Position numbers and translations under genes: made by a program
DNA from: a virus
Length of the DNA: 28,575 nt
Strand: one strand, 5' to 3'
Virus record (IMG/VR): IMGVR_UViG_3300035190_001032
Coordinates: 1-28,575 of that record
In this document: in pieces, positions 1-28,403 of the stretch
How positions within the stretch are numbered: position 1 is the first letter of the stretch
Layout: every line of letters begins with the position of its first letter
The notes under the pieces: model-generated
What the model saw: the letters and a program-made list of their open reading frames with translations, nothing else
Told to the model about the DNA's origin: nothing
Database searches by the model: none

Positions 1-1445
1 TCTCACAGCCGCAGAATACCCTGATCCTTGTAACCAGTACCACGCTTCGGGAAGCGCGGAAACGGATCTGGGGTTCCATCATCTCGCTCCTTACGGTGGT
101 CGAGGACGCACCAATCAAGATTCGGGATTCAATCGGAAACATCGCCTACATCAACGAGAAGGGAGACCTTATCGAGAAAGCTGGCCTCTCGCTTATCGCG
201 GCGGAAAAGAGCAAGACACGGGAAGCGGTCGGCAAGTTTATCGGTATCAAGCAGAAGCGGGTCATCGTCATCGCGGACGAGCTTTCGGAACTGTCGGAGG
301 CGATCCTCAACGCTGGCCTGACTAACTTGTCCAAGAACCCTGATTTCCAGATGATCGGGATGAGCAACCCCAACAGCCGATTCGACGCGTTCGGCGTCTG
401 GTCACAGCCGAAAAGCGGGTGGGACTCGATCGACGCACAGATCGACGACGAGTGGGAGACGAAGTGGGGCGGGAAGTACATCCGTCTTGACGGCGAACGG
501 AGCCCCAACATTCTGGCTGGAGAGACCATCTATCCTTGGCTGCCAACTGAGGCTAAACTGGCAGAGGACAGGGCTTTGCTTGGACCGGAATCTCGCGGCT
601 ACATGCGGATGGTTCGAGCGGTGTTCTTCGACTCCGAAGAGACGGAAGGGATCTACTCCGAGGCGGAGCTGGCCAGAAGCGGTTCCCTTGGAAAGGTGCA
701 GTGGGTCGGGAAGCCGATCGCGGTTGCGGGGCTCGATCCGGCCTTTACCAATGGCGGCGACAGAACGATTCTCTATACCGGAAAGGTTGGCTACGACACG
801 AAGGGCCAATACGTCTGCGAATTGGGAGAGGCGATCCACCTAAACGACGACGCCACAAACAAAGCCATTCCGCGTACATACCAGATTGTCAAACAGATTA
901 AGGACCACTGCGAGAAACGCGGCATCTTGCCAGAGAATCTGGCGGTTGACTCGACTGGCGCTGGAGCGCCTTTCTGTGACGTGCTTGCCGGAGAGTGGTC
1001 TTCCGGATTCCTCCGTGTAGGATTCGGCGGGAAGGCTTCCGATAAAAGGGTAAGCGCAAACAGCAGTCTGGTCGGGGAGGAACTCTACGTGAACCGTGTA
1101 TCCGAACTCTGGTTCGTCGGGAAGGAACTGGTCCGTACCAAACAGCTGTTTGGGATCAGCGGAGATCTGGCCCAAGAGATCTGTGCCCGTAACTACGAGC
1201 TGGTCAAAGGCGGCACGCTCCGTGTGAAGATCGAATCGAAAGCAGATTTCAAGTCTCGCTTCGGTCGTTCGCCCGACTTAGCGGACGCGGCGTTCCTCTG
1301 TCTCGACATGGCCCGCCAGAGGCACGGAGTGGTGGCTGTAGAGCCGTTGCCGGAAAGCTCGGCTAACGGGTTCCAGAAAAGGGGTACGACGTTCCAGTCT
1401 TTGCGGAACGCTCTCTCGTCGGAGATGTCGATGGCTCTGGATTAA
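1..1445 (+). CDS. terL: Terminase large subunit, 5'-truncated
   Basis: This is the C-terminal ~480 residues of the phage DNA-packaging motor; the reading frame is open from base 3, so the true start and the Walker A loop lie upstream of the window. A Walker B-like strand (VIVIADEL, bases ~261-284) has the acidic pair D-E, followed by a coupling-motif-like segment (MIGMSNPNS). The C-terminal half looks like an RNase H-fold nuclease: GLDPAF followed by GGDR (~733-765), then AVDSTGAG (~945-968) and a late acidic cluster (SPDLADAAF, ~1270-1296). In the family the ATPase drives genome translocation into the procapsid through the portal, and the nuclease cuts concatemeric DNA. The GTG at base 96 is internal and is not a start. 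The gene is followed by ~290 bases of control DNA. Confidence 0.9.
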   Translation, partial: SQPQNTLILVTSTTLREARKRIWGSIISLLTVVEDAPIKIRDSIGNIAYINEKGDLIEKAGLSLIAAEKSKTREAVGKFIGIKQKRVIVIADELSELSEAILNAGLTNLSKNPDFQMIGMSNPNSRFDAFGVWSQPKSGWDSIDAQIDDEWETKWGGKYIRLDGERSPNILAGETIYPWLPTEAKLAEDRALLGPESRGYMRMVRAVFFDSEETEGIYSEAELARSGSLGKVQWVGKPIAVAGLDPAFTNGGDRTILYTGKVGYDTKGQYVCELGEAIHLNDDATNKAIPRTYQIVKQIKDHCEKRGILPENLAVDSTGAGAPFCDVLAGEWSSGFLRVGFGGKASDKRVSANSSLVGEELYVNRVSELWFVGKELVRTKQLFGISGDLAQEICARNYELVKGGTLRVKIESKADFKSRFGRSPDLADAAFLCLDMARQRHGVVAVEPLPESSANGFQKRGTTFQSLRNALSSEMSMALD

Positions 1446-1517: not shown

Positions 1518-1531
1518 AATGTATTTACATT
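1518..1531. promoter_or_regulatory. Operator-like palindrome AATGT-N4-ACATT, site 1
   Basis: AATGT ATTT ACATT is a 5-bp-arm inverted repeat with a 4-base centre, in the left outer arm of the large inverted repeat. Related sites occur at 1672-1685, 1715-1724 and 2027-2042, which suggests a shared dimeric regulator. The regulator is unknown. Confidence 0.45.
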
Positions 1532-1684
1532 GTAGTTTGATTGCCTGTTTGGACCCCCTACTTGAAAACTTTCTATAGAATAGAATAAACCGTTTGCTCT
1601 ATAGCTCAAACTGTTTAATAGAGTTTAGAAAAAGTTTTTATATAGGGTTCTTGTAAGGGCAATCAAACTACAATGTAAATACAT
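1519..1684. repeat. 27-bp perfect inverted repeat enclosing a nested palindrome
   Basis: Bases 1519-1545 are the exact reverse complement of 1658-1684 (27 of 27). The 112 bases between the arms contain further imperfect arms: AAAACTTTCTA at 1565-1575 against TAGAAAAAGTTTT at 1626-1638, and AAACCGTTTG at 1586-1595 against CAAACTGTTT at 1607-1616, centred on CTATAG. Each outer arm carries an AATGT-N4-ACAT site. Possible roles are a cruciform or hairpin signal, a regulator array or a replication origin; the sequence alone does not decide. Confidence 0.8.
1552..1645. repeat. Nested palindrome, copy 1
   Basis: This stretch closely resembles bases 25408-25499. Both share an ACCCC tract, then ACTTTCTATA, AAAC-Y-GTTTG, CTATAGCTCAAAC, GTTTA, TAGAAAA and a closing GTTTTTATAT. 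In this copy the inner stem AAACCGTTTG/CAAACTGTTT carries one mismatch. It lies inside the 27-bp inverted repeat, upstream of the rightward genes at 1733 onward. Confidence 0.75.
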
Positions 1685-1695: not shown

Positions 1696-1724
1696 TTGAC
1701 ATCCAAAGCCAAAGAATGTACATT
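1696..1724 (+). promoter_or_regulatory. Sigma70-type promoter, leaderless, for the gene at 1733
   Basis: TTGACA at 1696-1701, a 17-base spacer and TACATT at 1719-1724. Only eight bases separate the -10 box from the ATG at 1733, so transcription should begin at or next to the start codon. The -10 box overlaps a perfect 10-base palindrome AATGTACATT (1715-1724), a plausible repressor site. Confidence 0.65.
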
Positions 1725-1732
1725 GTAATCAC

Positions 1733-2026
1733 ATGGCTGCTCCACGATTTAAGAGACTATCTTCCGGTCAGATCCAATATATGGGAGAGAAGTACGCTGG
1801 CTTTAATAAGCCGAAGAAGGCACCAGCTGGCTCTCCAAAGAAGTTTGTAGTTTTGGGTAAGGAAGGTGACAAAGTCAAAAAGGTCTCTTTTGGCGCGAGA
1901 GGCTACGAGGATTATACCCAACACAAAGATCCCAAACGGAGGGCCAACTTTCGGTCTAGACACAGCTGCCAAACAGCGAACGACAAGACGACAGCCCGCC
2001 ACTGGGCATGCAAACATTTGTGGTGA
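1733..2026 (+). CDS. Small basic conserved phage protein
   Basis: This 97-residue protein is rich in K and R. A strand-like KKVSFG (residues 49-54) is followed by a C-terminal block, DPKRRANFRSRHSC then KTTARHWACKHLW, with C79, C93 and a conserved-looking R-H-W-x-C-K pattern. From memory, similar small proteins with an S-F-G turn and a terminal 'ARYW-C-K-W' motif recur in diverse phages; their function is not established, and the paired C/H residues might bind metal or nucleic acid. The ATG lies eight bases after a -10 box and no Shine-Dalgarno sequence is possible, so the message is probably leaderless. It is the first gene of the rightward cluster that leads to the giant protein. A virion or DNA-packaging accessory role is inference only. 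Confidence 0.75.
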   Translation: MAAPRFKRLSSGQIQYMGEKYAGFNKPKKAPAGSPKKFVVLGKEGDKVKKVSFGARGYEDYTQHKDPKRRANFRSRHSCQTANDKTTARHWACKHLW

Positions 2027-4615: not shown

Positions 4616-4643
4616 CAACAATAACAAATAACTAGTGTCTGCT

Positions 4644-7600
4644 ATGTCAGAGCTTAATAAACTACTACAAGAAGATCCGGACTTTCTTTCCATTGACGAT
4701 TGGAAAAAAGAAAATGATACCGGAGAGGAACTTAAAAACCGCAAGAATTACGCTGAGTATGTTCGCGGCGAATACGCATCTGCTGGATTGTATGATGATC
4801 GAATAGCTAATGAGATCACACAGTCAACTCTTGAAAGCGCAATCTTAGATGGCGCGGTTGAACCAGACGACGATGTTGCCAAGGAGATACTACTTACTCC
4901 TGATGAACCCGATCTGGACTCCAAGCTCCAGATGGTGGTAAGTAATTTGGATACAGAAGAACCCGCTTGGAAAGCGGCGTCTACATATCTCGCTTTCAAA
5001 AAAGCCAATCCCGAAGGGGTAGAAGTACCGGAAGAGATCCGACTTAAAGGAGAGGATTACTTTGCCGACGCTTCGATGATGGCTGATTCTGGCTACCGTA
5101 AAGCGGCGAAGAATGCCGTGCGTAGTGGAGAACTCCCCCTTGCTAAAGTAAAGAATGAAGAAGGCGAATACGAGATCCTTGTTTCCCCGAACCTTGGCTC
5201 CATGAATATGGCTGAGGCTATCCGCGCCAGCAAAAGGGGCGGGGTCTCATTTTCCGACACGACAGCTGTTCAGTCGAAGCTCTCCACTCCGGTCGGTTTT
5301 TCTGAGCCGATGTACAAGATCGAACGGTATTCACAAGCCGCTTCTGCAATTGAAGAATACTCCAAGAAGGACAAGCTCACAGCAACAATCATTCAAAATT
5401 ATTCTGATGAATTGGCCGCCGCTGACAAAGACGGGCGGGCCTCCAAATCATTTGAAGATAGAGCTTCTCTGCTCCGCTATGAATTAAATAAAAGCGGACT
5501 CCTTCCAGAAGATGAAGCCGTCACAGACGAAGAGGTTTCAAAAGCGATGACACAGATCGCTTACAACAACGCTAATGCTAGTGGTAAATTCAAACTCTAC
5601 GATAATCCGGAGGAAGCATACAAGAACGTACGTAACGTTGGTTTCGGTGGAGCGTTTGTTCACCCCGCTGCATTAGTAAATGATGACCTTTACAAGCAAT
5701 CAGTTACTGACAACCCTAACCTTTCTGAAGACCAGAAGAAAGTTATTGAAGCCCGTCGCGAGCCGATGCTCCAGCAAACCTTCGACCAACACAATGACAT
5801 CCTATCAAAGTCTTCAATGTCAGATGAGTGGCTTAATGCCCTCCAATCTGGCCGCGTAAATAAAAAGAAAGACACCGAAATTCTTAAAGAGTTTGTTTCA
5901 AATCCAGACAACTTTAGTGAGGTCGGAGACCGCATATCTGGAGTCGTCGGATCGATCGTTGACGGCTTCGGCGAAATGGCCGCCGCTATCCCGATGATGA
6001 TGGGCGCTGATTGGGCTCGCGACTACATGGTCGGCAACATCAAGGAACGCAGTAACCGCAAAGAGGTTGCTCGTTTGTTTGGTGCAGAGTATGGCGTTGG
6101 TCAAGAGATCATGGAGTCGATCGCCCCGATGTTGGCCGACATGGGAGCCACCACACTTCTCGCCGGACTCACCGCTCCGGCAGCCGGAACTGGCGGGGCG
6201 TTATATCTCTCATCAAAGCAAGGCGCTCGTCTCACAGCAAAGGGAATGCTCAAGTCGATGACCTCTAACGCTCTTCGCCAGCTCCCAACGGAGACTATCG
6301 AGGAAGCGGCAGAAAGACTTGTCACACAAAACCTCATTAAGGCTTCTACTGCTGAAGCGGGAATTAGCGGAGCCCAAGCTGCGATCAAAGGATTTAATAG
6401 CCAACTTGTAAAAAAGGTTGGGTTGGCTCCAGCTATTGCTCTCCCTGCTTTCAATCGTTCCGCCGGATCGACATATGCCTCTGTCTACACAACTCTGGAA
6501 AATAACAAAGACCTCACTCCAGAAGAAAAACATGACCGCGCCCTTGGAGCGGCAATGACAAGTGGCTCTATCACCGCTGCTATTACGGCGGGCTTCTCTG
6601 GCTTCGGTCGCGGCGGTATTGAGAACGCCCTCCTCGGCGGAGCGTCGCGCAAACAAGTTAAAAATATCATGTCGCGTCTCGCTAACGTCGATGATATTCC
6701 GGATGATGTATTTAATAAAGTCATCGCGAAACAGGTTTCTGATACGATGAAAAAACAAGCGTCGTTCGGACTCGGCAAAGAGATCGTTAAGAACTCCCTT
6801 GATGAAGGCGCTGAAGAAGGTCTCGACCAATTCATTAACTCTTTTGTTACAGATGCTGCTACCGATGAGAACACTCCCTTCCTTGAAAGACTCGAACAAG
6901 CCGGACGCGCTGCTTTGATCGGCGGCGTCATCGGCGGCGGCGTGCCCGCTGTCAAAGCCGTTAAGAATTCGATCATACGTCGCAGTGACGTTAGCGCACA
7001 GATGGCTGTTGAGGTTGACTTCGCTAAAGGAGTTAGCCAAAAACTTACAGAAGCCGGAAGCCCCCTCACGGCGCAAACCGTTTATGGAATCCTCACCGCT
7101 CCGAGACGCACACGCGCCCCGATTGCCCAAGCGATTCTCGAAGCATCTCGCCAGCCCGCTATCGGAACTGTTGCTGAGACAACAGCAGAAACTCCAGAAG
7201 TCAAAGATGCTGCCGAACCAGATATCGCTACGACTCAAGAACGGATTGTCGAAGCACTCAACAACTCAACATCTCCAGACACCGTAGCCAAAGCCATCGT
7301 TGATTCGCGTGGACAGTCGCAGTTCGGTTTTGTGGAAGAGCTTCCTTTGAACGAAGTTGTAAAGCGCGGACGCACTGTTCGCAAGCCGACCGGATCAACT
7401 GATCCCGTAACCCAACAGATGGAGTTTGATTTTAACTCGCAACGGGAGAACAAACCACAGGATCAACTTGATCTCGGACTCGACGTCCCCGCTGCCGACG
7501 CACCGAAAGTAAAAGTCAGACGCACATCGACTGTTAATAAGAGCGTCGAGAAAGCCGGACTAGCCGAACAACTCGGACTTGATTTCGATCGAGCCGTTAC

Positions 7601-10600
7601 CGAAGAGCAGAACAATCACATCGATGCGAACTATTCGGACGAAGATCTTACCGATCAAGAACGCTCAGATATCGAAGCGGAACTTCAAGGAGAGCTTGGA
7701 CAGTTACCAGATAACGAACGCATCCGAGCAACAATCGAACTTTTCGGAGCCCTCGAATCAGGACAACCAAAAGCACCAAAAGGCAAAAGCGTCGCTAAAG
7801 ACGTGCCTGCTCAAGTAACCGCTGCTCCGGCAAAGCCAGCTGCTAAACTTCCAAAAGCTGCAAAGGTCCCAACGATTTCAAACATGCCAGTTGCCGATGA
7901 GCCAATGTTTGCTTCGGACGAATTCATTGACGACGAACTGATCGGCCAAGAGGTTGGCGCGATGACGAAGATCGCTACCTTCGGTTATCCAGTTCGCCTT
8001 GAGCGCAAAGCCCTGCACGGAATGCCACAACGCGGCAAGTATCCTAAAGGATACCTCGCCGGAAAATCCGACATGGTCGCTCGCAAAGTTAATGAGCTTT
8101 ATCCAGTCAGCATGCCGACGGATGTTATCGCCGTTGATGAGATTACTGGAAAAGATAAAGTTTCTTACTACGACCCACAAGCCAAGAAGGTCGTCCGCAA
8201 AGCGCCGAAGGCTTTCGTCGATGAGAACGGAGTCGGTATCTTCAACAACGATCCCGTTTCCATGAAGCTGTTGCTCGACCGCCGCATTCCGGTTGTCGTT
8301 CCCGAATCCTTTACCGGAACCCTTAACCCGTCTTTCCGGACGCGAGCTTCCGGAGGCATGCAGTTCCTCAACGATATCGTTATGACAAATCCCGAATCCG
8401 GAACCGGATTCGTGTCTGTCCTTACCAAGCAAGACAAAGTCATTTCGGGAGAGCCCAACTACAAGTACTACGAAAACCTGTCCACGTTCACAGCTCTGTT
8501 CAACGAAGGCGTCGCAGAACGCACTGTGCCCGATCCGAAAGGCAAGGCAGCTGACGTTACTGTCGCCAGCATTATCCAAGACGCTGACCAGCTTTATATC
8601 ACCGCATCTACCGATAGGCCAACCAGCGCGTACGGAGATCCCGATAAGGCGCGTGCCACCCTTCGGTCTATCCTGAAGCCGAGACAGGGAACCCTTGAGC
8701 GGGAGTTCCTTGAAGCCGCTATTCCAGCGTTTAACATGGCTGTTCGCAAGGAGGCTTACCTACACGAACTCCGCCTCGGAATGGACAAGTTCGCTGAACG
8801 CAAGTCCGGTGAGGCAACACCGACCCTCAAGGCCAACAAGATTGGAGAAGCCATAACGGACTTTGTTTCGCGTACCAAAGTGGACAAAGTTACGGCGGCC
8901 CGCAACGTTGCACAAGTATTCGGTTCCGATATCAATCCGGACAAGCAACCAGAGCTAGTCATCCAGAAGTTCATCGAGGACACAGTTCTTACAAGACGCC
9001 CGAACATGCCCACCTATCGCGAGATCGGTGCAAAGGTCGGCAACGCGTTTGCCGAACAACAACGGAGCCGCGACATCTTTACCCGCAAGGCATTGTTCCA
9101 GACTACCGATCCGACCGATCTCGCACAGATCCGCGAAGAGCAAACGGAAATCTTTAACGCCGAAGCCGAAGCAGCAGACAATACATTCATCGCTCCGACC
9201 GAACCCTTCGATGCACCAGATTCTGGCTTGATCTCGAAGGCTCTTGAGGAAGCGGCTTTTGATGCGGCGGACGCTTTGGACACAGATCCGGAGATGCGTG
9301 CCGTGATCGACAAGATGCTTCGTCAAACGGTGTTCAAAGGCAACAGCGCGATCGACGTCACGAAACTCAGCTCGACCGATGCGTTTGGCATGCTCGCCTC
9401 TTGGATGTCTTCCGGAAACTACAACACCAATCCGGTCGCTCTTAAATTCCAACGCGATCTCCGCGACGGCGTTTATGAGAACGGCGAGAGACTTCGCCGC
9501 CCACTCAAGCTGATGTACCTCAGCTCCAAGACTATCGAAGGCGATCCAACGAAGGACGACGCCTATGTCGATTCGATCCGCGAGAACTTGGCGAACTCCT
9601 TTGGCCGTCCGGTCTCCAAGCAGGAGGCTTCCGCCTTCATCAAGTCGATCGGCGGAGCGGTACAGAAACTTTGGTCGCGCTCCTATGTCCGTGGAGAACA
9701 AATCATTTTCGCCCGACAGCAGAACGACGCCGATGTGGCACGCCTTGGACTGAAGACCAACGATCCGGAATCGGTGATCAACGCGTTCAAAGTGATCGCC
9801 TCTACCGAAGCCGATCCGAACAAGCGTCTGCTCGCCAAGCTCCTACTGGAGAATCAAGGATACATCCGCCAAGTCGAGTTCTCTCTGGACGAATCTCCGC
9901 TTGAATACTCTGGCGGCTACATCGTCGGATCCAACGGACAGCCGATGATCTCCGTCAACTTGGACGGCCACAACGGTCGCGGGCTTGCCGATGTTCTCCT
10001 CCATGAGTACACCCACGCCTTTGTCAGTATCTCCGCCACAAGCCCGAACGAGAACCTCAACGCCGCGCAGCGCGGTTCGCTCCAACGACTCAACGGAATC
10101 CTCGAACTTGCCCGCCGCTCTGCCGCAGACAGCAACATCACCGATCCGATTTTGCTCGACGGGCTTGAGAACATTAACGAGTTCGTCGCACACTTCTTTA
10201 CCAGTACAGATTTCCAAGGATATCTGAAGTCGTTGCTCCCGCCGACCAAACAGCGTGGCTTCTTTGCCCGCACGATCGATGCCGTTCTTGACATGTTCGG
10301 TCTCAACAGATCGAAACAGTCGAACTACCAGAAGGCGTTCGCCGATATGGTTGACCTCACAAGGGCCGCCGTTCTCCGCGCTCCGCTGACTCCGAAGGGA
10401 CTGATCAACCGTCTCGCGAATCCTGCATCCCGAACCCTGCAACAGGTTTCCGAAGCCGCTCAAGCGATACGCCAGACTCTGGCCACATCGGTAGAACAGC
10501 CGACTCAGTACGAAGTCTACGACCGCCAGACTGGCGAAGTCGTGTGGACTGGTACACGACGCGACATCGCGAGACAGGTACAGGACAACCGCGACAATGC

Positions 10601-13600
10601 ATACGGCGGATATCGTTTCGCCGTACGCCAGACAGCCGCTACAGCAACGCCGACTCCGACTCCCGAAACGTTGGCAACAGCCATCGATCAGGAGACAGAG
10701 GATCTGGTTTCAGGAATCGGGGCACAGGATGTGGCTCCAGCTACTACCGAAACTCCGGCAGAGTTGACCGCCAAGATCAAGGACATGATCCGTATGGTTC
10801 GCCGTATGGTTCCTGCTGAATTTGCTCTGGAGATCAACACCGATATGCCATACGCCGCCGCTTTCCAAGGCGGTAAGATCTTGCTTAACCCATACGCAAT
10901 GTCTGGAACTGTTGCCGGACTCGATCCGACATCGGCCAGAGGAATCGTCGAAGCAATCATGACAGAGGAAGCCGCTCACGCCGCCTCCTACAACGCGCTC
11001 ACACAGCAAGAGCTTGATAACTACATCGCTACTCTGAAGGACTCGGACTTCGACGCGATCATCGACAGCTACTACCAGTCTGACGAGAAGAAGGCAGAAG
11101 CCAAAGCTCGTATCCGTTCCGAGGATCCAGCCGAAGCCGCACGCGAACGCGAAGGCATGGCCGAAGAGAAGCTCCGGATGCACTCGCAAAAGGTGACACG
11201 CGGATTCACGACCGAAGACGACTACACATTCTGGCGTGCCAAGCCCTCACTGTTCCAGATCCTTGGACGATACATGAAGGGATTCATTAACCGATACATG
11301 GCTGGCAAGTCTCTCGCTACCATGAACGGCGCACAGCGTGTCGCCCTTCAACGGATGGTCACAGAGGTACGCGCCATCAATGCTGGCTACCGCCTCACTC
11401 CGAACACTCTTGAGTTCGACGCACAGAATCCGCACGCTTCGCTGTCGCAGATTGCGACACAGCTCGGCGCAGAGTTGACCGAAGCACAAGAGCTGATGCC
11501 GATGTCTGCTGTTCGTGTTCTCCACAACGATAGCGCAGAACTTCCGAAGTCAACATCAAAGATCACCAATGCTAAAGTAGCAATCGCTTTGGCGGACGCC
11601 GCTCAAAAATATTGGGGCCGCATGATTACCAGCACTGATATTACTGAAGAAGAAAAAGCAGAAATCATCCGTAACGGTACTCAAGAATTTATCGCCGCAC
11701 TAAACGCTAGTGGCAAGAACGCTGCTGATTGGTATTCTACGGCCATTGATATCGCAATGGAAGTTGCGGCATTGATCCATCCAGAACTGTCAAATATCGA
11801 AGCGGCTAATAAAGTACCCGCTTTCGCTGCGGCAGACAATCCAGTTCAAGCCGCTCAGTTTGCAATGCGTATGGCGTTGGCTATCACATCGCAGAACATC
11901 AATGTTAAGCAGAATACAAAGTATGCTGAAGAGCAGTTTAACATTCTCAAGCAAACCGGAAAATTCGATAGCTCAAAAATCTACGGGACAAAGGCGTTGG
12001 CTATTCAAAGTAATCTTGAGCTGGCTAACATCTTGGTAGACTCATATGGTTACGGAGACGCAGAAGCATTTGTTCGTAAAGAGTTTACTGTTAAAGAACT
12101 TGAAGAGGAAGCTAGTGAGATTCGTGGTAAAAAAGTTACCATATCCGGCAGACAACAAGACTCTGTAAATGGAGCGGCAATCTTCGGGCCGAAAATTGGT
12201 CAAGGGTTCTTGCAGAATCTGATGTCGAATTTCGATCCCGTCACCATTGACCTTTGGATGCGGAGGACGTGGGGTCGTTGGACAGGAAATGTAGTTGGAG
12301 ACGGCGTTACCGATGAGCGCCTTGCCAACCTATTGATCGGCGCAAGAGATGCAAAGATTAAACTCCCCCCATTTGCGAGACAAATAAAGACTGTCACTCG
12401 CTATAATGTGTTGTCAACTGGCAAACAAGGAGCCCCGTATCAATCTGTATCAAGCTCGGTAATTAGCAGACTAGAAACCGATTTGGATTACAGAAATCAA
12501 TTTAACCAGTTGGCTAAAGATCTGTTTGCTGAGTGGCAGAAACAATACAAATTGTTGAAAGACGGATCGATTAAGAGTACACAGAACGGGGAGTCTGTAA
12601 GCATTACTTACGGAAAAGTTACCAAAGAATTGATGGCCGACTACCGTTCCGGAAAGATCAAACTCGAAGATATCATCGAAGATATTAAAAAGTTTGAAGA
12701 CAATCTCGATAAGCAATTTGAATTGGAAAAAGCCAAAGCAAAAAAATCTGGCGAAAAATTCAAAACAAAGATTGCCGACTGGCGATACGACGGCTACATT
12801 AACGCCGACCGGACTGAGTCCTTCTCGAACAAAGACATCTCCGAACTCAAGCCCGCATGGGCAAGAGCCGCTGATGTTATCAAGGCAGAACTCAATCCTA
12901 TCGATATTCCATCTGACCAAGACCGACGCGTCATTACTGAAATTGTTAATGGCATACGCGCCGAGCTTGAATCGCTTGGATATGTTACAACTAACGCGGA
13001 TATCCAAGCTGTGCTTTGGTATCCAGAAAAAGATCTCTGGTCTAAATTAGCAGGGAAAGAAGAGAGCAACTTAAAACAATCTTATGATGACGAATTCATT
13101 AACATCGCAACAGAGAGGGGTCTCGGCGGAGAAGCAAGACAACTTGCCGAATCCATCCGAGCCGATCGAGCCGCACGAAATAGCCAGCGGGATGACGGCA
13201 GACCAAATGAAGAGGTTTTTGCTGAAACTCATGCCGCCTTCAAAGAAGCGAGAGCGAGCCAAATAGGAACTCAATTCGGCGCGGCCTCACAACTGCCAGC
13301 CGGATTCGATGCAGACGCCATCGACTACAGCAACTTCCTTGAGTCGCTAGAGATGCCGCTGATGGAGGTCGGTACATACCAATCGCCGTCGAAGCTGATC
13401 GACAAGTTGCTCAAGGGCGAACTCGATCCCCGAATCCTGCGCCTTAAAAACCAACGCGACTTCTTCAACAAGGCTACCTTTGATCTCGTCAAACGATACA
13501 AGACCAAGCTCGACGCGATCATCAAGCGCGACTTCGGCGGTATCGAGAGTGCGCCGATCGATCTTATTCAAGCCGCTACCGGATCGACTAAAGGTATCGT

Positions 13601-16367
13601 TGTGCCGGAGGATGTCATTACGCAGATCGAAGACGACTTCAACTACGATCTCGAAGTCATCGACATGGACGACTCGCTGACCGCCGACGACAAGATGGTG
13701 GCACGCGACATCGCGATGGCCAACCGAAACAAAACTCTTGCCGATGCAGAGAAGGCCGCCGCCGATTCGATCCGCGCAAGCAGGGATCAAGCACTCGCTG
13801 ATCTCGCTGTGACCTCGCCGGAACTGGTTCAGCATATCGTCCAGCTCCGCACACTTACCGACGAGCTGTCGAAGAAGGTGACAGAACTCTATGGCTTCCC
13901 GCCGGAACTCAAAGCGAAGTTCGACAACCAGCTCGGCATCTATCTGACCCGCTCTTACAAGATGTTTGACGAAGTCGGATATGGTGCGAAGGTTCTCAAC
14001 GATCCGGACTACGACACGATCCGCGAAGCGGCGATCAACTTCTTCGAGAAGCAGTTCGTCGATAGCGAAGTGAGCCGCCGTATCTCTGGCCCGAACTCTG
14101 TGCCAAGGGCACAGGCAGAGGCCGAAGCCAAGCGGGAACTCGGACTCAAGACAATGGGTGGCCGCTCCTATGGACAGCTCATGATGGAAGAGTTCGTCAA
14201 AAGCTACGACAAGTCCGGCGGTGCGATCTCTTCGGCCAGCTTGAGCCAGTCGCTCAAGCCGTTGCTCGACAACATCCAGATGAAGCGTGACATTCCGGAG
14301 CCGATCCGCAATCTCCTCGGAGAGCAAGGCGCGGAAGGCGGAGCCGACAACTTGCTCCGCTCATTGGTCACGGTAGCCACGATGGCGTCGAACCAATCGT
14401 TCCTCAACCATGTTCGGGATGTCGGTCGCGCAAGCGGCTGGCTCCTCTCGGCCTCGGAGTTGAGCGACGCACGCAAAAAGGATTACGATACCTACAAGAA
14501 TTACAAACCAGTTAGAGAGTCAACGACATCTTCTTACGATCCTATCGGAGAACTCTACGGCCCGCCGGAAATGGTGGAGGGATTCCGTAAGGTGTTCTCT
14601 CCGGACGGCGTCCGGTTCAACCAGACCGCCGCACAAGATGCAGTTGCCAAGACTATCGGCGTCGCCGCCAAGATGTCCGGCGGAGCGATGGCCGCCAAGA
14701 CCCTCGGCTCGATCGGATTCTATGTCCGCAACATCGTATCGAACGCCCTGTTCTTTGCTCCGGCACAAGGATTTGTGAACCTCAAGTCGATGTCGCAGAG
14801 CGCGTACAAAGAAATTTGGGGCAACGCACTCCGCGATCCAGACGCGATCGATGCCTACCGGACAAAGCTGATCTCCCTCGGCGTGATCGGGGATGACATT
14901 AACACCAACATCATGGCCTCCATGCTTCGCGGTGGTACTTCGGACGACATCGAAACACAGCTCGACAAACTTTTGGATACCGCAAGCAAGGGACTCAAGC
15001 CCTTGAAGTGGCTGTCCGATAGGGCGCAAGTCCTGTCCGGTTCGGTCGATGCGTTCTACAAGATCGCCTACTACGAGAACGAACTCCGCGTTCTGAAGGA
15101 AGCCAGAGCGGTCGATACCGGATCGATGGCTTCGATGTCCGACCAGCAACTGGAGCGGATGGCGGCAGAGAAGGTACTGGCCACAGCGCAGTCTTCATCG
15201 CAAGCACCGCCGATTGTCCGCGAGTTCACGCAATCCGGTCTCGGACTGCTGTTCGCTCCGTTCGTCCGGTTCAAGGTTGAGGTTCCCCGTATCATTCTCA
15301 ACACATACAAGACTGCATGGGCGGAGATGAATTCGAGCAATCCGGTACTGAAGAGCCGAGGCATCAAGCGTTTCTCCGGCATGAGTCTAATGCTCGGAGG
15401 TATCTCGATGGTCGCTCCGGCAATTATCAGCATGGTTCGCGGCATCGGAGACGACGAGGATGAAGCGTTGAGGTCTTCCGTTCCGGACTACTTGAGGAAC
15501 CACACCTTCTTCTACCGCCGCAAGGATAACGGACAGCTTCAATCGTGGGATCTTACATTCCTCAATCCGTTCTCGATCGCGGCTGATCCGGCGATGCGTT
15601 CGCTCGAACTGATCTTCAAGGGACGGCCAGCAGATGCCGCCGCGAAGTTCATCGAGACCGCTATCTTTGACCAGTATCTCGACGATCAGATCTTGTCGTC
15701 CGCCGTTCAGAGTCTGCGCGACAACGAGAACCCAACGACGGGCAAGCCGATCTACGAACCCAAGCTGGACAATGTCGGGATCTCATTACTCAAGTCGATC
15801 TCCTTTGTCCTCAAGGAAGCGTACCAACCTTCGGTCGTGAAGCGTGCGATCGAGTCCTACCAAGCGGTCGGGGCAGACTACACAGAGTTCGATGACAGCC
15901 CGATCGGAATCCTCATGCGTGAGTTCTATCCGGTTAAGCCGCACAACATCGAACTTGACAAGCAACTTCGCCGCTATCTTTCGGAGACCAGAGATGTCTA
16001 CAATCGGGTCAACGAAAGAAAGAATGTGATGTTCAGCAAGAAGCCTATGAGTTCCGATGAGGTGAAGGATATCATGCAATCGGAGATCGAGGACAAGGCG
16101 AAGGTCAACGAGGATGTCTACAAGAAACTGCGCGGCTTTGAAGGTCTCGGCCTCACACCACAGCAACTCTACCAGATCACAACTGGTGCTGGCTACGGCA
16201 AGGATCGTACCAGACTGCTGTTCAATAAGGTCATGGATCGTCCGGTTCTTACTCCGGAGTTCATCAAGAAGATGTCCGATCCAAAGAACGAGCAGGGGCT
16301 GGAGCGTTTGAAGTCGGCCATCGAAGTACTACAAGGCACGCCAAGGTACATCTTGCTTGAGCCGTAA
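4644..16367 (+). CDS. Giant polyvalent virion-associated protein with zincin and LPD38-like regions
   Basis: This ~3,907-residue multidomain protein (3,910 if the in-frame GTG at 4635 is used) is probably carried in the virion and ejected with DNA. Numbering from 4635: residues ~490-530 and ~755-775 are hydrophobic or Gly-rich and follow E-rich helices, a possible membrane-active part; ~900-1,130 is a charged, low-complexity linker; ~1,750-1,860 is a zincin with H1790-E-x-x-H1794 and a likely third ligand E1849; ~1,960-1,990 is a small motif ending D-N-A-Y-G-G-Y-R; ~2,060-2,150 is a second, degenerate zincin; ~2,300-2,880 is a compositionally distinct module; ~3,300-3,700 resembles the LPD38 family. 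No Shine-Dalgarno sequence is seen; the leader is A/C-rich. ATG 4644 is preferred over GTG 4635. No virion RNA polymerase motif was found. Confidence 0.8.
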   Translation: MSELNKLLQEDPDFLSIDDWKKENDTGEELKNRKNYAEYVRGEYASAGLYDDRIANEITQSTLESAILDGAVEPDDDVAKEILLTPDEPDLDSKLQMVVSNLDTEEPAWKAASTYLAFKKANPEGVEVPEEIRLKGEDYFADASMMADSGYRKAAKNAVRSGELPLAKVKNEEGEYEILVSPNLGSMNMAEAIRASKRGGVSFSDTTAVQSKLSTPVGFSEPMYKIERYSQAASAIEEYSKKDKLTATIIQNYSDELAAADKDGRASKSFEDRASLLRYELNKSGLLPEDEAVTDEEVSKAMTQIAYNNANASGKFKLYDNPEEAYKNVRNVGFGGAFVHPAALVNDDLYKQSVTDNPNLSEDQKKVIEARREPMLQQTFDQHNDILSKSSMSDEWLNALQSGRVNKKKDTEILKEFVSNPDNFSEVGDRISGVVGSIVDGFGEMAAAIPMMMGADWARDYMVGNIKERSNRKEVARLFGAEYGVGQEIMESIAPMLADMGATTLLAGLTAPAAGTGGALYLSSKQGARLTAKGMLKSMTSNALRQLPTETIEEAAERLVTQNLIKASTAEAGISGAQAAIKGFNSQLVKKVGLAPAIALPAFNRSAGSTYASVYTTLENNKDLTPEEKHDRALGAAMTSGSITAAITAGFSGFGRGGIENALLGGASRKQVKNIMSRLANVDDIPDDVFNKVIAKQVSDTMKKQASFGLGKEIVKNSLDEGAEEGLDQFINSFVTDAATDENTPFLERLEQAGRAALIGGVIGGGVPAVKAVKNSIIRRSDVSAQMAVEVDFAKGVSQKLTEAGSPLTAQTVYGILTAPRRTRAPIAQAILEASRQPAIGTVAETTAETPEVKDAAEPDIATTQERIVEALNNSTSPDTVAKAIVDSRGQSQFGFVEELPLNEVVKRGRTVRKPTGSTDPVTQQMEFDFNSQRENKPQDQLDLGLDVPAADAPKVKVRRTSTVNKSVEKAGLAEQLGLDFDRAVTEEQNNHIDANYSDEDLTDQERSDIEAELQGELGQLPDNERIRATIELFGALESGQPKAPKGKSVAKDVPAQVTAAPAKPAAKLPKAAKVPTISNMPVADEPMFASDEFIDDELIGQEVGAMTKIATFGYPVRLERKALHGMPQRGKYPKGYLAGKSDMVARKVNELYPVSMPTDVIAVDEITGKDKVSYYDPQAKKVVRKAPKAFVDENGVGIFNNDPVSMKLLLDRRIPVVVPESFTGTLNPSFRTRASGGMQFLNDIVMTNPESGTGFVSVLTKQDKVISGEPNYKYYENLSTFTALFNEGVAERTVPDPKGKAADVTVASIIQDADQLYITASTDRPTSAYGDPDKARATLRSILKPRQGTLEREFLEAAIPAFNMAVRKEAYLHELRLGMDKFAERKSGEATPTLKANKIGEAITDFVSRTKVDKVTAARNVAQVFGSDINPDKQPELVIQKFIEDTVLTRRPNMPTYREIGAKVGNAFAEQQRSRDIFTRKALFQTTDPTDLAQIREEQTEIFNAEAEAADNTFIAPTEPFDAPDSGLISKALEEAAFDAADALDTDPEMRAVIDKMLRQTVFKGNSAIDVTKLSSTDAFGMLASWMSSGNYNTNPVALKFQRDLRDGVYENGERLRRPLKLMYLSSKTIEGDPTKDDAYVDSIRENLANSFGRPVSKQEASAFIKSIGGAVQKLWSRSYVRGEQIIFARQQNDADVARLGLKTNDPESVINAFKVIASTEADPNKRLLAKLLLENQGYIRQVEFSLDESPLEYSGGYIVGSNGQPMISVNLDGHNGRGLADVLLHEYTHAFVSISATSPNENLNAAQRGSLQRLNGILELARRSAADSNITDPILLDGLENINEFVAHFFTSTDFQGYLKSLLPPTKQRGFFARTIDAVLDMFGLNRSKQSNYQKAFADMVDLTRAAVLRAPLTPKGLINRLANPASRTLQQVSEAAQAIRQTLATSVEQPTQYEVYDRQTGEVVWTGTRRDIARQVQDNRDNAYGGYRFAVRQTAATATPTPTPETLATAIDQETEDLVSGIGAQDVAPATTETPAELTAKIKDMIRMVRRMVPAEFALEINTDMPYAAAFQGGKILLNPYAMSGTVAGLDPTSARGIVEAIMTEEAAHAASYNALTQQELDNYIATLKDSDFDAIIDSYYQSDEKKAEAKARIRSEDPAEAAREREGMAEEKLRMHSQKVTRGFTTEDDYTFWRAKPSLFQILGRYMKGFINRYMAGKSLATMNGAQRVALQRMVTEVRAINAGYRLTPNTLEFDAQNPHASLSQIATQLGAELTEAQELMPMSAVRVLHNDSAELPKSTSKITNAKVAIALADAAQKYWGRMITSTDITEEEKAEIIRNGTQEFIAALNASGKNAADWYSTAIDIAMEVAALIHPELSNIEAANKVPAFAAADNPVQAAQFAMRMALAITSQNINVKQNTKYAEEQFNILKQTGKFDSSKIYGTKALAIQSNLELANILVDSYGYGDAEAFVRKEFTVKELEEEASEIRGKKVTISGRQQDSVNGAAIFGPKIGQGFLQNLMSNFDPVTIDLWMRRTWGRWTGNVVGDGVTDERLANLLIGARDAKIKLPPFARQIKTVTRYNVLSTGKQGAPYQSVSSSVISRLETDLDYRNQFNQLAKDLFAEWQKQYKLLKDGSIKSTQNGESVSITYGKVTKELMADYRSGKIKLEDIIEDIKKFEDNLDKQFELEKAKAKKSGEKFKTKIADWRYDGYINADRTESFSNKDISELKPAWARAADVIKAELNPIDIPSDQDRRVITEIVNGIRAELESLGYVTTNADIQAVLWYPEKDLWSKLAGKEESNLKQSYDDEFINIATERGLGGEARQLAESIRADRAARNSQRDDGRPNEEVFAETHAAFKEARASQIGTQFGAASQLPAGFDADAIDYSNFLESLEMPLMEVGTYQSPSKLIDKLLKGELDPRILRLKNQRDFFNKATFDLVKRYKTKLDAIIKRDFGGIESAPIDLIQAATGSTKGIVVPEDVITQIEDDFNYDLEVIDMDDSLTADDKMVARDIAMANRNKTLADAEKAAADSIRASRDQALADLAVTSPELVQHIVQLRTLTDELSKKVTELYGFPPELKAKFDNQLGIYLTRSYKMFDEVGYGAKVLNDPDYDTIREAAINFFEKQFVDSEVSRRISGPNSVPRAQAEAEAKRELGLKTMGGRSYGQLMMEEFVKSYDKSGGAISSASLSQSLKPLLDNIQMKRDIPEPIRNLLGEQGAEGGADNLLRSLVTVATMASNQSFLNHVRDVGRASGWLLSASELSDARKKDYDTYKNYKPVRESTTSSYDPIGELYGPPEMVEGFRKVFSPDGVRFNQTAAQDAVAKTIGVAAKMSGGAMAAKTLGSIGFYVRNIVSNALFFAPAQGFVNLKSMSQSAYKEIWGNALRDPDAIDAYRTKLISLGVIGDDINTNIMASMLRGGTSDDIETQLDKLLDTASKGLKPLKWLSDRAQVLSGSVDAFYKIAYYENELRVLKEARAVDTGSMASMSDQQLERMAAEKVLATAQSSSQAPPIVREFTQSGLGLLFAPFVRFKVEVPRIILNTYKTAWAEMNSSNPVLKSRGIKRFSGMSLMLGGISMVAPAIISMVRGIGDDEDEALRSSVPDYLRNHTFFYRRKDNGQLQSWDLTFLNPFSIAADPAMRSLELIFKGRPADAAAKFIETAIFDQYLDDQILSSAVQSLRDNENPTTGKPIYEPKLDNVGISLLKSISFVLKEAYQPSVVKRAIESYQAVGADYTEFDDSPIGILMREFYPVKPHNIELDKQLRRYLSETRDVYNRVNERKNVMFSKKPMSSDEVKDIMQSEIEDKAKVNEDVYKKLRGFEGLGLTPQQLYQITTGAGYGKDRTRLLFNKVMDRPVLTPEFIKKMSDPKNEQGLERLKSAIEVLQGTPRYILLEP
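9900..10215 (+). other. Zinc metallopeptidase-like domain 1 in the giant protein
   Basis: Residues ~1,756-1,860. The helix LLHEYTHAF provides an HExxH site (H1790, E1791, H1794; bases 10002-10016), preceded by a strand-like PMISVNLDGH. About 55 residues later INEFVAHFF offers E1849 as the third ligand, the usual arrangement in phage polyvalent gluzincins. It may self-process the giant protein or cut host or head proteins after ejection; the substrate is unknown. Confidence 0.7.
10800..11090 (+). other. Degenerate zincin-like domain 2 in the giant protein
   Basis: Residues ~2,056-2,150. A strand GGKILLNP precedes a helix MTEEAAHAAS in the same spacing expected for a strand and HExxH helix, but the first zinc histidine is replaced by glutamate (E2111-E2112-A-A-H2115; bases 10965-10979). 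It may be an inactive or altered-metal copy. Confidence 0.5.
11545..13280 (+). other. Compositionally distinct module inside the giant gene
   Basis: Residues ~2,300-2,880 are encoded by DNA visibly richer in A+T, with AAA/GAA/AAT-type codons, than the GTC/GCC/CTC-rich DNA on both sides. The protein segment has NFDPVTIDLWMRRTWGRW (~2,532-2,549) and NADIQAVLWYPEKDLW (~2,787-2,802), motifs I associate loosely with DUF7178-like or related phage polyvalent domains. It reads as a domain inserted by recombination. Confidence 0.5.
14590..15930 (+). other. LPD38-like C-terminal region of the giant protein
   Basis: Residues ~3,320-3,765. The segment around FYVRNIVSNALFF (~3,362-3,374) followed by helices, FAPFVRFKVEVPR and a hydrophobic stretch GMSLMLGGISMVAPAIISMV fits my recollection of the large polyvalent protein-associated domain 38. 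It is known from giant phage proteins and lacks an assigned biochemical activity. Confidence 0.5.
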
Positions 16368-21221: not shown

Positions 21222-21226
21222 GTGGG

Positions 21227-23580: not shown

Positions 23581-23591
23581 CGGTGAGTGGA

Positions 23592-24594: not shown

Positions 24595-24864
24595 ATGCCG
24601 AACGCAAAAAAGCAAGAGTACTACAGGAAAAACAAGGAGGCGCGTGTACAATATCAGCGGGCCTACTACGAGAAGAACAAACACATCATCGTACGAAAGC
24701 GTGAAGTGCGTGACTTCCTCGAACCGGAAGAGCGGGAGGCGATGCGCGAGTACAACAAGCGGTACTACGCGGCGAACAAAGAGCGGATCAAGGAACAGAG
24801 AAAACAGAAACGGGAATCAACGATACACTCCCGAAGTGTAGCAAACAGCAACAGCGTATCCTAA
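24595..24864 (+). CDS. Small basic protein with YY-x-x-NK repeats
   Basis: This 89-residue, strongly basic helical protein has repeats: EYYRKNKEARVQYQ, AYYEKNKHIIVRK and RYYAANKERIKEQ. Similar Y-Y-x-x-N-K/R arrays occur in many phage proteins, sometimes next to HNH or DNA-binding domains, and are thought to bind nucleic acid; that is recollection, not a search result. It is the first rightward gene of the divergent region and probably leaderless. Its TAA overlaps the ATG of the next gene (TAATG at 24862-24866), so the two are translationally coupled. Confidence 0.65.
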   Translation: MPNAKKQEYYRKNKEARVQYQRAYYEKNKHIIVRKREVRDFLEPEEREAMREYNKRYYAANKERIKEQRKQKRESTIHSRSVANSNSVS

Positions 24865-25407: not shown

Positions 25408-25499
25408 AGACCCCACTTCAAAAACTTTCTATAAATGATGATAAACTGTTTGTGCTATAGCTCAAACAGTTTATAGTAGTTATAGAAAAGTTTTTATAT
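25408..25499. repeat. Nested palindrome, copy 2
   Basis: Inner arms ATAAACTGTTTG (25441-25452) and CAAACAGTTTAT (25463-25474) are exact reverse complements around TGCTATAGCT, whose core GCTATAGC is itself a palindrome. Outer arms AAAAACTTTCTATAA and TTATAGAAAAGTTTTT pair with a one-base bulge. It closely resembles 1552-1645 but lacks the 27-bp outer arms of that copy. Confidence 0.8.
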
Positions 25500-25516: not shown

Positions 25517-25588
25517 TTGACGCCTATGGAAACGATACCATTTCGACTACACGAAATTATTTTCTCTCAGACAAAGAAAAAAACTTGA
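25517..25588 (+). CDS. Possible 23-residue leader peptide
   Basis: A perfect AAAGGAG (25502-25508) sits eight bases before TTG 25517, which opens a 23-codon frame (MTPMETIPFRLHE..., ending KKKT) stopping at 25588; an internal ATG is at 25526. The stop overlaps TTGACG. The ribosome-binding site is the only reason to list it; the peptide resembles nothing known. Confidence 0.25.
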   Translation: MTPMETIPFRLHEIIFSQTKKKT

Positions 25589-25618
25589 CGGCAAGCCCGC
25601 CGATACTATCTTCGCCAC

Positions 25619-26074
25619 ATGCCGATACCGACAACCGCCACGAAGTACACCGTTGATTCCGATAGCCGACTGTCCAGAGACGGGAAACGGCTCCGTGTAC
25701 GCCGGACCGATAACGGCGTCTTCGGGCAGCTCGTCTGCGACGACGGGATCCGCCGACGCGTTAACCTCGCCAACCTCAACAATCCCGAACGTGTGATAAC
25801 TCCGGAACATGTCTTCGGTAAAGAGAAGGCGAAGATCCATCCCGACTATCCAGATTACGCCGTCACCAATTACGGAGACGTCTACTGCCTACGCAACTCC
25901 AAGTCCGGAATACGCGCCAACACGATCTACATCGTTCCGGACTTCCTTCACGGCCCGACCAATAGGCGATACATCTCGATACGCCGACCGAACGGAACAC
26001 GGTACCAGATCCGTCTTTACCGATTCGTAAAGCAAGTGTGGGGCGACGACGCACAATTTAACGAAGACGAATAA
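25619..26074 (+). CDS. NUMOD4-like domain protein lacking a nuclease domain
   Basis: This 151-residue protein has, at residues ~74-92, IHPDYPDYAVTNYGDVYCL, matching the NUMOD4 pattern (Y-x-V-x-N-x-G-x-V-x-S) common in HNH homing endonucleases. It is followed by YISIRRPNGTRYQIRLYRFVKQVW, which fits the rest of such a module where a conserved aromatic/valine segment precedes the nuclease. No HNH residues follow; the protein ends 11 residues later. It may be a DNA-binding remnant or a repurposed regulator. A TACTAT box ends nine bases before the ATG, as upstream of the portal gene, suggesting a leaderless message; its -35 partner is unclear. Confidence 0.55.
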   Translation: MPIPTTATKYTVDSDSRLSRDGKRLRVRRTDNGVFGQLVCDDGIRRRVNLANLNNPERVITPEHVFGKEKAKIHPDYPDYAVTNYGDVYCLRNSKSGIRANTIYIVPDFLHGPTNRRYISIRRPNGTRYQIRLYRFVKQVWGDDAQFNEDE

Positions 26075-26078
26075 GTCC

Positions 26079-26106
26079 TTGACAACTTTTCTATAAACCT
26101 TACTAT
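26079..26106 (+). promoter_or_regulatory. Promoter for the portal gene, leaderless
   Basis: TTGACA (26079-26084), a 16-base spacer and TACTAT (26101-26106). The ATG at 26115 is eight bases past the -10 box, so the transcript should start at or next to the start codon. The promoter begins five bases after the previous gene's stop. Confidence 0.65.
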
Positions 26107-26114: not shown

Positions 26115-28403
26115 ATGTCAGCTACGCATCTCGATATCGACGGACTTGCTCTTGAAGCCTTAGACGAAAAAGGCAAACCAGTCGAGACCAGACTCAAAGA
26201 CGTGCAGTCGGCCCTGTCGATCTTCAGCTCGCTCCGTCGTGGCGACGAGAAGTCTTCCGTTGTCCGCGCACGTATCGATTCAATGTTCGACGGCGCTGCT
26301 CCATACGACGCGGCAAAGCTCGCCTCTAGCGGACAGCAACTCAAGACCAACTTGAACTTCGGAGACGCACAACGTCTCTTGGACATCTCCCTTTCTGCCT
26401 ACGTCGATCTCTACAGCTCTCTCGAAAAGCTCGTCGAAGTAAAAGGTACTGTTGGCGAGAAAAGCCAGATCGGATACAAGGAAGACATCGTCGCAGAAGA
26501 GGTGACACACATGCTCCGCAACTGGCCGGAATTCCACAGCAGCTACCTAAGACTCTGTACTACATTCATCAAGCACGGAGTCGGCGTTGCCTACTTCGAC
26601 AATCCAGACGAGTGGCGTTTCCGTGTTGGCAGCTTTGCTGACATTCTCATTCCGAGACAGACCCCGTCTAGCGAGAACGCAGTTGATGTGGCTGTGATTC
26701 GCCGCGAATATCTTTTGCACGAACTCTTCGCGTTCGTTCGTAACGAAGAGGTAGCTACTAAAGTCGGATGGAATCCAGACGAAGTAAAACGCATCATTAC
26801 TAAAAACGTTAAGACTACCGGACGCCGCTACTCAGAAGGCGGCTCGCTCTACACCGATTGGGAAGCGATCCAGCAAGAGCTGAAGAATAATGATTTATAT
26901 ACCGGACTACAGAACCCAACTGTGTCTGTTTTACACTTCCTTATCCGTGAGATGGACGGTTCGGTCTCGCACTTTATCTGTGCTGAAGACAGCCCAAAAG
27001 ATTTCTTTTACAAGAAACTTTCCCGCTACTCATCGCCTGAACAGGCGTATGTCATGTTTACATACGGCGTCGGCTCCAACGGAACCTACCACTCCATACG
27101 TGGTTTGGGCCAACGCATCTTCAACCACATCCAGACTAGCAACCGCCTCCGTTGCCAGATGATCGACGGCGCGATGTTGAGTTCAGCTGTCATGCTACAG
27201 CCGGAATCGCAACGCGCTCTGGATGAGTTGCAGTTCACCTATTACGGTGCGTATGCCATTGTATCGCCGAACGTAAAGATCGTCGAGAAGGCAATTCCAA
27301 ATCTTTCACAGGCAGTGATGCCAGCGTTGCAGGACCTCACCAGTCAGCTGCAACTAAACACCGATACCGTTTCGACATACGGACCGAACCAGTCTTCGCC
27401 ATACAAGAACCAGATGCAGGTCGTGGCAGACATGGACGTCGCCACCAGACTTTCTGGCGCTTCGCTCAATCTCTTCTACGCCGCTTGGACACGCCTGATG
27501 CGTGAAGTTGTTCGCCGCATCGTTGACAACAAGCGTCCCGACGCAGCCATCAAAGAGTTCTACAAACGTTGCGCCGATCGCGGCGTCGAATCCGACTTCA
27601 TCAAGAAGCTCGACCTCAGCAAAACCAAAGCCGTTCGATCAATCGGAAACGGTTCATACGCCAACCGCCTTGTCGCTCTCCGTGAGATGCAAGCGATGGC
27701 CGGATCGTTCGATGAGGTCGGACGCCGCAACCTCACACGCGACATCGTCAGCACACGTGTTGGCCACGATCTCGCAGATCGCTATATCTCAGCTAGTGTC
27801 CAAGAGCGCCCGACGGTTGACGTTAAGATCGCGTTCTTGGAGAACCAACAGCTTCAGGCCGGACAGCCTGTGCCCGTTGTTCCGAATGAGATGCACGGAA
27901 TGCACTTGCAGACGCACCTTCCGGTCCTGAACCAGATCATCGAGCAGATCAATGTTGGCCAAGCAGATCCTCAACAGGTCTTGCCGATGCTTCAGGCTTT
28001 CTACCAGCACATCGGAGAAACGCTTCAGTTTGCCTCTGGCGACCCGACACTACAATCTCTGGTCAGTCAGGCCAAACAGGTCATGCAATTCGCTGAGGAG
28101 GCCATCAACAACACAAACAAGGCCCTCCAGAAAATGCAACGTGATCAGGCAGAAGCAGAGCAGCAGATGGCCGCAGAGAGCCAGCAGATGGCAGCAGAAG
28201 GCCAGCCGATGCCGCAGCAAGGAATGCCGTCCCAAGCAGACCTCAAGATGCAAGAACATCAAATGAAAATGGACATGGCACGCCAAAAAGCAGAGCTTGA
28301 CTTTCAGATCCGCCAACGCAAAGCTGATCAGGACGTAGCGATCCGCGACTCCAAAGCGGCACTTGAATTTAGAAAAATGAATCCTCTGCAAGAAGAGCAG
28401 TAA
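26115..28403 (+). CDS. Portal protein
   Basis: This 762-residue protein is the probable head-tail connector: portals form a dodecameric ring at one capsid vertex, through which terminase pumps DNA and DNA later exits. Support comes from length (close to N4-type portals, ~763 residues), an all-soluble mixed N-terminal and central part, a central stretch GLGQRIFNHIQTSNRLRCQMIDGAM, the following YYGAYAIVSPNVKIVE, and a long helical C-terminus rich in Q, A, M and K (residues ~680-755), typical of podovirus portals. It has no enzymatic motif. It starts from a leaderless promoter and is followed four bases later by another gene. The family call rests on pattern recognition, not a search. Confidence 0.7.
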   Translation: MSATHLDIDGLALEALDEKGKPVETRLKDVQSALSIFSSLRRGDEKSSVVRARIDSMFDGAAPYDAAKLASSGQQLKTNLNFGDAQRLLDISLSAYVDLYSSLEKLVEVKGTVGEKSQIGYKEDIVAEEVTHMLRNWPEFHSSYLRLCTTFIKHGVGVAYFDNPDEWRFRVGSFADILIPRQTPSSENAVDVAVIRREYLLHELFAFVRNEEVATKVGWNPDEVKRIITKNVKTTGRRYSEGGSLYTDWEAIQQELKNNDLYTGLQNPTVSVLHFLIREMDGSVSHFICAEDSPKDFFYKKLSRYSSPEQAYVMFTYGVGSNGTYHSIRGLGQRIFNHIQTSNRLRCQMIDGAMLSSAVMLQPESQRALDELQFTYYGAYAIVSPNVKIVEKAIPNLSQAVMPALQDLTSQLQLNTDTVSTYGPNQSSPYKNQMQVVADMDVATRLSGASLNLFYAAWTRLMREVVRRIVDNKRPDAAIKEFYKRCADRGVESDFIKKLDLSKTKAVRSIGNGSYANRLVALREMQAMAGSFDEVGRRNLTRDIVSTRVGHDLADRYISASVQERPTVDVKIAFLENQQLQAGQPVPVVPNEMHGMHLQTHLPVLNQIIEQINVGQADPQQVLPMLQAFYQHIGETLQFASGDPTLQSLVSQAKQVMQFAEEAINNTNKALQKMQRDQAEAEQQMAAESQQMAAEGQPMPQQGMPSQADLKMQEHQMKMDMARQKAELDFQIRQRKADQDVAIRDSKAALEFRKMNPLQEEQ

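Follow-up and report, generated by a model that had tools for sequence, protein, structure and literature searches.

Two short noncoding palindromic elements in an uncultured phage family, one lying 3' of the terminase large subunit gene (terL; site T) and the other 5' of the portal gene (site P), evolve in concert through recombination or template switching, with flips of orientation along the way. This concerted evolution, which the original prediction for this DNA had missed, is the central feature of the elements, and it offers a clear natural case, in phages, of two short noncoding sites changing together, with hairpin interiors that turn over faster than the genes that surround them. Searches of open-access papers turned up no precedent for two fixed loci that stay alike throughout an old phage family while close relatives have exchanged their interiors.

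The DNA analysed here, called the window throughout, is a stretch of 28,575 nucleotides from IMG/VR and covers part of a phage genome; the relatives of this phage in that resource have genomes of about 60 kb, and no named phage in the collection searched carries a relative of the window TerL or portal at the threshold used. The window start cuts terL, the product of which has 595 aa in a full-length relative. Portal homologues occur at 53 loci in IMG/VR, although the protein itself matched no PHROG or Pfam family and owes its name to position and size, and the 89-aa gene upstream of P belongs to no clear family in profile searches (Table 1). In the relatives examined, the first half of the gene order runs from terL through T and a rightward block, with the gene for a giant protein last, to a leftward block, and the second half from a small rightward gene through P, p151 and the portal with the remaining rightward structural block to a leftward replication block and back to terL; it is because of this layout that T and P can be said to head the two rightward virion-gene blocks. 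In G001, the relative used as reference (59,671 bp, with contig ends that overlap by 123 bp), a leftward block near terL encodes a family A DNA polymerase, a helicase, an exonuclease and a RuvC-like resolvase.

Several other features of these genomes are worth recording. The giant protein of the window (4635-16367) has 3910 aa and its G001 counterpart 4261 aa; scanned in two parts it matched nothing in Pfam, PHROG or PDB, and it is possibly an ejected or polyvalent protein. The leftward block of the window also contains a pair of genes for a VWA-type protein (18736-20151) and an ATPase (21227-22297), found in 16/18 and 15/18 of the element-bearing genomes versus 2/7 and 3/7 of the element-free ones, making this cluster the best candidate in a comparison of gene presence with the element, yet not an exclusive one. 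Another within-genome repeated set of palindromes, TAGTGCG...CGCACTA, occupies successive gaps of the leftward block (window 21205-21229, 22401-22425, 23559-23583 and 24223-24247), and similar palindromes are present in L004 and L007. In addition, the TerL relatives L236-L239 come from binned genomes named Opitutae, Blastopirellula and Altibacter, names that disagree on the host, and one of them, L237, bears the element.

Table 1. Coordinates, strand and basis of the features discussed; positions refer to the window except in the last row, where they refer to relatives.
Feature	Position	Strand	Basis or remark
Terminase large subunit, C-terminal part	96..1445	+	phrog_2, E=1.5e-7; window start cuts gene
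Left outer 27-bp arm, site T only	1519..1545	+	Repeat search, 100% complementary; nearly invariant in close relatives
C-run beside core, site T	1554..1558	+	Sequence
Outer stem, left side, site T, AAAACTTTCT	1565..1574	+	Folding; columns invariant in close set
Inner lineage-variable palindrome, site T, one mismatch	1586..1617	.	Fold; relatives replace interior at both sites together
Outer stem, right side with T5 run, site T, AGAAAAAGTTTTT	1627..1639	+	Folding
Right outer 27-bp arm, site T only	1658..1684	+	Repeat search
Sigma-70-like promoter TTGACA-17-TACATT	1696..1724	+	8 nt before ATG of DUF5754 gene, leaderless layout
DUF5754 protein, first gene past site T	1733..2026	+	PF19058, E=3e-15
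Small conserved gene, 89 aa, upstream of site P	24595..24864	+	Present in 19/27 genomes
ACCCC flank, site P	25410..25414	+	Sequence
Outer stem, left side, site P, AAAAACTTTCTATA	25420..25433	+	Folds; pair counts
Inner palindrome, site P, perfect 12-bp stem	25441..25474	.	Repeat search; folds; compensatory differences from L004
Outer stem, right side with T5 run, site P	25481..25495	+	Folds
Sigma-70-like promoter TTGACG-16-TATCTT	25585..25612	+	6 nt before ATG of p151
p151, fast-changing small protein, two similar modules	25619..26074	+	Candidate cognate DNA-binding protein only
Sigma-70-like promoter TTGACA-16-TACTAT	26079..26106	+	8 nt before ATG of portal
Putative portal protein, landmark gene	26115..28403	+	Named from position and size
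Conserved hairpin GCTAAGGGGTTCC..GTAAAA..GGAACCCCTTAGC	L004 9042-9074, L006 8108-8141, L007 15586-15619, L014 17240-17269		Shortly before gene start downstream of portal

The unit common to T (copy 1) and P (copy 2) is a core of ~75-90 bp bounded by A4-5/T5 arms, with C-runs and G-runs flanking it in many relatives. The original prediction described perfect 27-bp arms around a palindrome whose core is repeated farther on, and most of that description stands: a repeat search found the arms to be 100% complementary and recovered the second core at ~25410-25499, the stretch 1565-1643 recurring at 25421-25499 with 78% identity when aligned directly and about 70% when inverted (E=1.5e-16 by blastn of copy against copy in their own genome), but the 27-bp outer arms are confined to the terL copy. 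The inner stems likewise proved to be as predicted, perfect over 12 bp in copy 2 (25441-25452 / 25463-25474) and with a single C.T mismatch in copy 1 (1586-1596 / 1607-1617), and rightward genes do lie downstream of both copies. The prediction also proposed folding the copies as DNA and as RNA, and both fold far beyond chance, with RNA energies of -68.3 kcal/mol (z -10.3) for copy 1 and -31.2 kcal/mol (z -4.5) for copy 2, DNA z values of -9.7 and -6.2, and not one equally good fold among 200 dinucleotide shuffles of either copy in either form.

Among 27 near-complete genomes, the window fragment included, the element is present at both T and P in 18, at P only in two (G009 and G022) and at neither site in seven; these states need at least four changes on the TerL tree, several deep forks of which are open, and the number of losses is uncertain. 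The search of relatives that the prediction had called for therefore located the element at equivalent positions beside virion genes. The conserved part is the outer stem, AAAAACTTT...AAAGTTTTT, which varies between AAAAACTTT and AAAAAGTCTT on the left and between AAAGTTTTT and AAGACTTTTT on the right, often with C-runs or G-runs outside, and which is recognisable in most element-bearing genomes and much weaker in the deep G017/G020/G024 group. The inner palindrome, with a stem of about 9-19 bp and a loop of 0-9 nt, has unrelated sequences between genomes, and its pairing in 49 distinct elements amounts to 663 Watson-Crick pairs versus 30 mismatches, a paired fraction inflated by design as stems were picked as best-pairing. 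Covariation, likewise looked for as the prediction had suggested, was found in that compensatory changes keep the stems paired in relatives: four inner pairs are altered on both sides in the closest set, for which a shuffle control (66/500) was not strong and sliding the partner by 1-3 columns left 0-1 such changes. Given 10 G.T and 9 A.C mismatches in an unbiased count of few events, the pairing shows no preferred strand; an earlier count of 29 G.T versus 14 A.C was thrown out because the stem finder favoured G.T. Exceptional copies also occur, such as the loss of half of the inner palindrome in L062, a third copy in G003 and tandem copies in L044, L013 and G020, and at the contig end of G003 (62760-62920) a tandem array with the unit GTGTCATAAATATGACAACGGAAAGA adjoins the third copy.

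It is in the comparison of T with P that the concerted evolution becomes apparent, since the inner palindrome is almost wholly different between phages, yet alike at T and P of one genome. The local T-P score within a genome has a median of 140.5, versus 36 for T-T and 37 for P-P between genomes, and the best match to P was the genome's own T in 16/17 genomes, and to T its own P in 14/17, the exceptions involving close relatives. The elements of G004 and G005, phages with TerL 90% identical, reach scores of 61-62 when one genome is compared with the other, but 178 and 146 inside each genome, and G005 and G025, in which TerL and portal are ~97% identical, have different interiors at both sites. 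T and P of G025 are 100% identical over 75 bp in inverted orientation, with a match that ends at the A/T arms, and the inverted identity reaches 97% in G005, 92% in G018 and 88% in G004; exchange borders are sharp at the arms in both G025 and G005. Inverted copies are found in G004, G005, G018, G007 and G026 as well as G025, and direct copies in the window, G001, G002, G003, G017, G019, G020, G024, G032, G033 and G036. Furthermore, the matching block reaches beyond the arms in G003 and G018, and the P copy of G001 is a mosaic of P-type outer parts with a T-type left spacer and interior (the same core being found in L042), which reads as a probable conversion tract. Words from the interiors are found at the elements and hardly at all elsewhere in noncoding DNA.

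Taken together, the identity in G025, the inverted copies, the swapped interiors and the G001 mosaic make it probable that T and P match because sequence is physically copied from one locus to the other, and not only because a common factor selects for it. Inverted repeats are known to become alike in their arms, and to have their spacers flipped, through template switching (PMC8604942), and the conserved inverted arms of the phage element could serve as short homologies for such switching or for single-strand annealing. As the A5CTTT/AAAGT5 arms are inverted repeats common to T and P, an interior would be copied from one to the other in either orientation, with a new interior arriving occasionally from another phage. 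Arm-based switching fits the orientation flips and the borders in G025 and G005; because the G018 and G003 blocks pass the arms, however, longer exchanges would occur too and arm-bounded exchange is not the sole route. The elements offer a legible history of switching or annealing events during phage replication.

The sequence comparisons establish the fixed positions, the conserved A5CTTT/AAAGT5 outer stem, the lineage-specific interior kept paired by compensatory change, the T-P matching and the inverted and mosaic copies. The best explanation, which I hold tentatively and with somewhat less than even confidence, is that T and P are orientation-independent palindromic boundary elements, terminator-like on both strands, heading the two rightward virion-gene blocks. 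Such a role is suggested by their location, directly downstream of a rightward gene and upstream of a promoter, by the A/T runs, by the occurrence of both orientations and by the lack of a G.T excess. Runs of A4+/T4+ stand on both sides of the hairpin, as around intrinsic terminators, in 52/68 elements versus 8% with shuffled flanks, and the hairpin energy is about -22 kcal/mol on either strand. Each element would halt transcription arriving from terL or the small gene, and from the opposite strand, by means of the hairpin and the T's on either strand, and would leave the downstream leaderless promoters undisturbed, while the inner palindrome would be freely replaceable, since pairing rather than sequence is used. 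Sigma-70-like promoters in the window (1696-1724, 2034-2062, 25585-25612 and 26079-26106) end 6-8 nt before start codons, suggesting that several virion genes of the family may have leaderless messages. Leaderless promoters of this kind with at least 9/12 matches precede a gene just past T in many genomes and the portal in 12, and those with at least 10/12 matches were found at 36/1217 gene starts versus 2/1217 controls, a comparison that allowed each gene a larger number of candidate start codons than each control.

The confidence placed in the boundary function is kept at this level because no canonical terminator was recognised and because seven genomes manage without the element. A canonical intrinsic terminator has a GC-containing stem and short loop followed directly by a T-run, and a terminator scan recognised none at the core of T or of P in the window; the stem beside the T-run consists largely of A and T, and a median of 16 nt separates the end of the inner stem from that run. 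In some of the genomes that lack the element at both sites, the promoter abuts the terL stop. It is also a point against the boundary reading that simple termination would not need T to match P. Elsewhere in relatives (L004 7515-7544 and L006 6527-6556) there is a hairpin of a different kind from T and P, GC-rich and resembling a canonical bidirectional terminator; it has A5/T5 runs, and its loop contains TTGACA. If the boundary reading is correct, the elements would provide a mapped pair of control points heading the virion-gene blocks of a widespread uncultured phage family.

Other explanations deserve consideration, beginning with the idea that T and P are paired protein-binding palindromes, whose interior is read at both sites by a phage DNA-binding protein, possibly p151, that switches the virion blocks, the specificities changing together. 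I regard this as unlikely, although p151 is only 43-83% identical between genomes with portals 95-99% identical, its divergence, once that of the portal is corrected for, still parallels the divergence of the palindrome (N-terminal part: partial Spearman 0.30, permutation p about 0.002), and the interior word is repeated in the outer arms of some elements (G004, L114, L017, L130 and L119). p151 is a possible lead as the partner of the palindrome, with weak resemblance to the NUMOD4 (2/15 members, best E 0.037) and HNH-endonuclease (E 0.006) families and no HNH match of its own; the view of p151 as a proven DNA-binding protein was rejected, given the weak Pfam and PHROG matches and the absence of a PDB fold match at E<=0.001. 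However, p151 is physically linked to P, and shared recombination may yield the correlation; other genes around P vary as well, p151 is present in four genomes without the element, and the exact spacer copying in G025 points to recombination. A paired DNA switch, in which self-templated cassette exchange keeps the copies identical and a co-evolving DNA-binding protein (p151 or another) reads the palindrome, is improbable; if true, it would constitute a private code for the two virion-gene blocks in each lineage, discriminating self from relatives. A dispersed repressor-type operator was rejected, as noncoding matches to interior words outside the T/P regions turned out to be known element copies. 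Similarly, a selfish or mobile palindromic cassette without phage function, copying itself among permissive intergenic sites via its A5CTTT/AAAGT5 ends, could explain the sharp ends in G025 and G005, the two orientations, the third and tandem copies and the empty sites in seven genomes, but it has little probability, as almost every copy in this deep tree occupies one of the two usual sites, which is vertical inheritance and not spread. The sites are fixed in most genomes, target-site duplication was not seen consistently in flanks read by eye, and both exact-pattern scans matched contigs of the phage's own family only, that of L197 being a member by its portal.

The palindromes are also cruciform-capable and usually number two per genome, and a RuvC-like resolvase gene lies near terL (phrog_1770, E=1e-14) in 26/27 genomes and is missing only from the 28.6-kb window fragment, all of which would suit a replication or recombination site that offers a hairpin for priming, origin function or Holliday-junction/cruciform cutting. 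Such a role is nevertheless very doubtful, since the seven element-free genomes retain the same replication genes and contig ends do not cluster at the elements. An origin at the elements was rejected for want of a consistent GC-skew turning point, as was a physical genome end or packaging hairpin, contig junctions lying at varied places and three contigs having overlapping ends, as circular maps would. An element that works as RNA in the + strand transcript, be it a riboregulator, an antitermination site or a site for RNase III, could also account for the strong RNA folds and the compensatory changes, but G.U-compatible and A.C mismatches are balanced, if few, copies occur in both orientations and an Rfam search with the element gave no match, making this very unlikely indeed. 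Finally, the original prediction was right that a structured, paired element with compensatory changes lies at equivalent positions beside virion genes, but its suggestion of an N4-type single-stranded hairpin promoter for a virion RNA polymerase is not supported. The palindromes do adjoin virion genes, and the giant protein is encoded in the same region; the stem and loop sizes, however, are unlike those of N4 promoters, and sigma-70-like promoters lie just downstream instead. The giant protein has no polymerase match in PDB, Pfam or PHROGs, although sequence searches are a weak test of it, and a search of 26 relatives with PF00940 (T7-like RNAP family) was uninformative, as neither it nor its control found anything; I consider the N4-type promoter barely credible.

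Returning to the boundary elements, bidirectional Rho-independent terminators share with T and P an A-tract, hairpin and T-tract usable from both strands and a location between genes and before promoters. In the phage elements, however, the base of the stem is AT-rich with a bulge and a bubble, the inner palindrome is long and variable, the two copies are kept alike in one genome, and termination would be the presumed outcome. The lambda nut and HK022 put sites are phage-specific hairpin signals copied at the heads of two operons, and T and P resemble them in heading two operons with the same phage-specific hairpin; nut and put act as RNA from one strand, whereas the T/P copies occur inverted and show no strand bias. 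Mycobacteriophage stoperators are likewise intergenic, repeated and specific to a phage, differing from one immunity group to another, but stoperators are short, asymmetric and numerous and the present elements are two to three large palindromes. The early hairpin promoters of phage N4, for which a 3-nt loop and 7-bp stem have been shown (PMC4496689), are likewise DNA inverted repeats with variable stem bases and conserved pairing; in contrast to their short stem, 3-nt loop and conserved RNAP target, T and P have long stems and variable loops, and a polymerase was not found. As in inverted-repeat template switching (PMC8604942), the arms are homogenised and the segment between inverted repeats is inverted, although that process was described at one locus in yeast coding DNA and the phage sites are two loci tens of kilobases apart. 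The element resembles bidirectional terminators in its anatomy and known inverted-repeat homogenisation in its behaviour.
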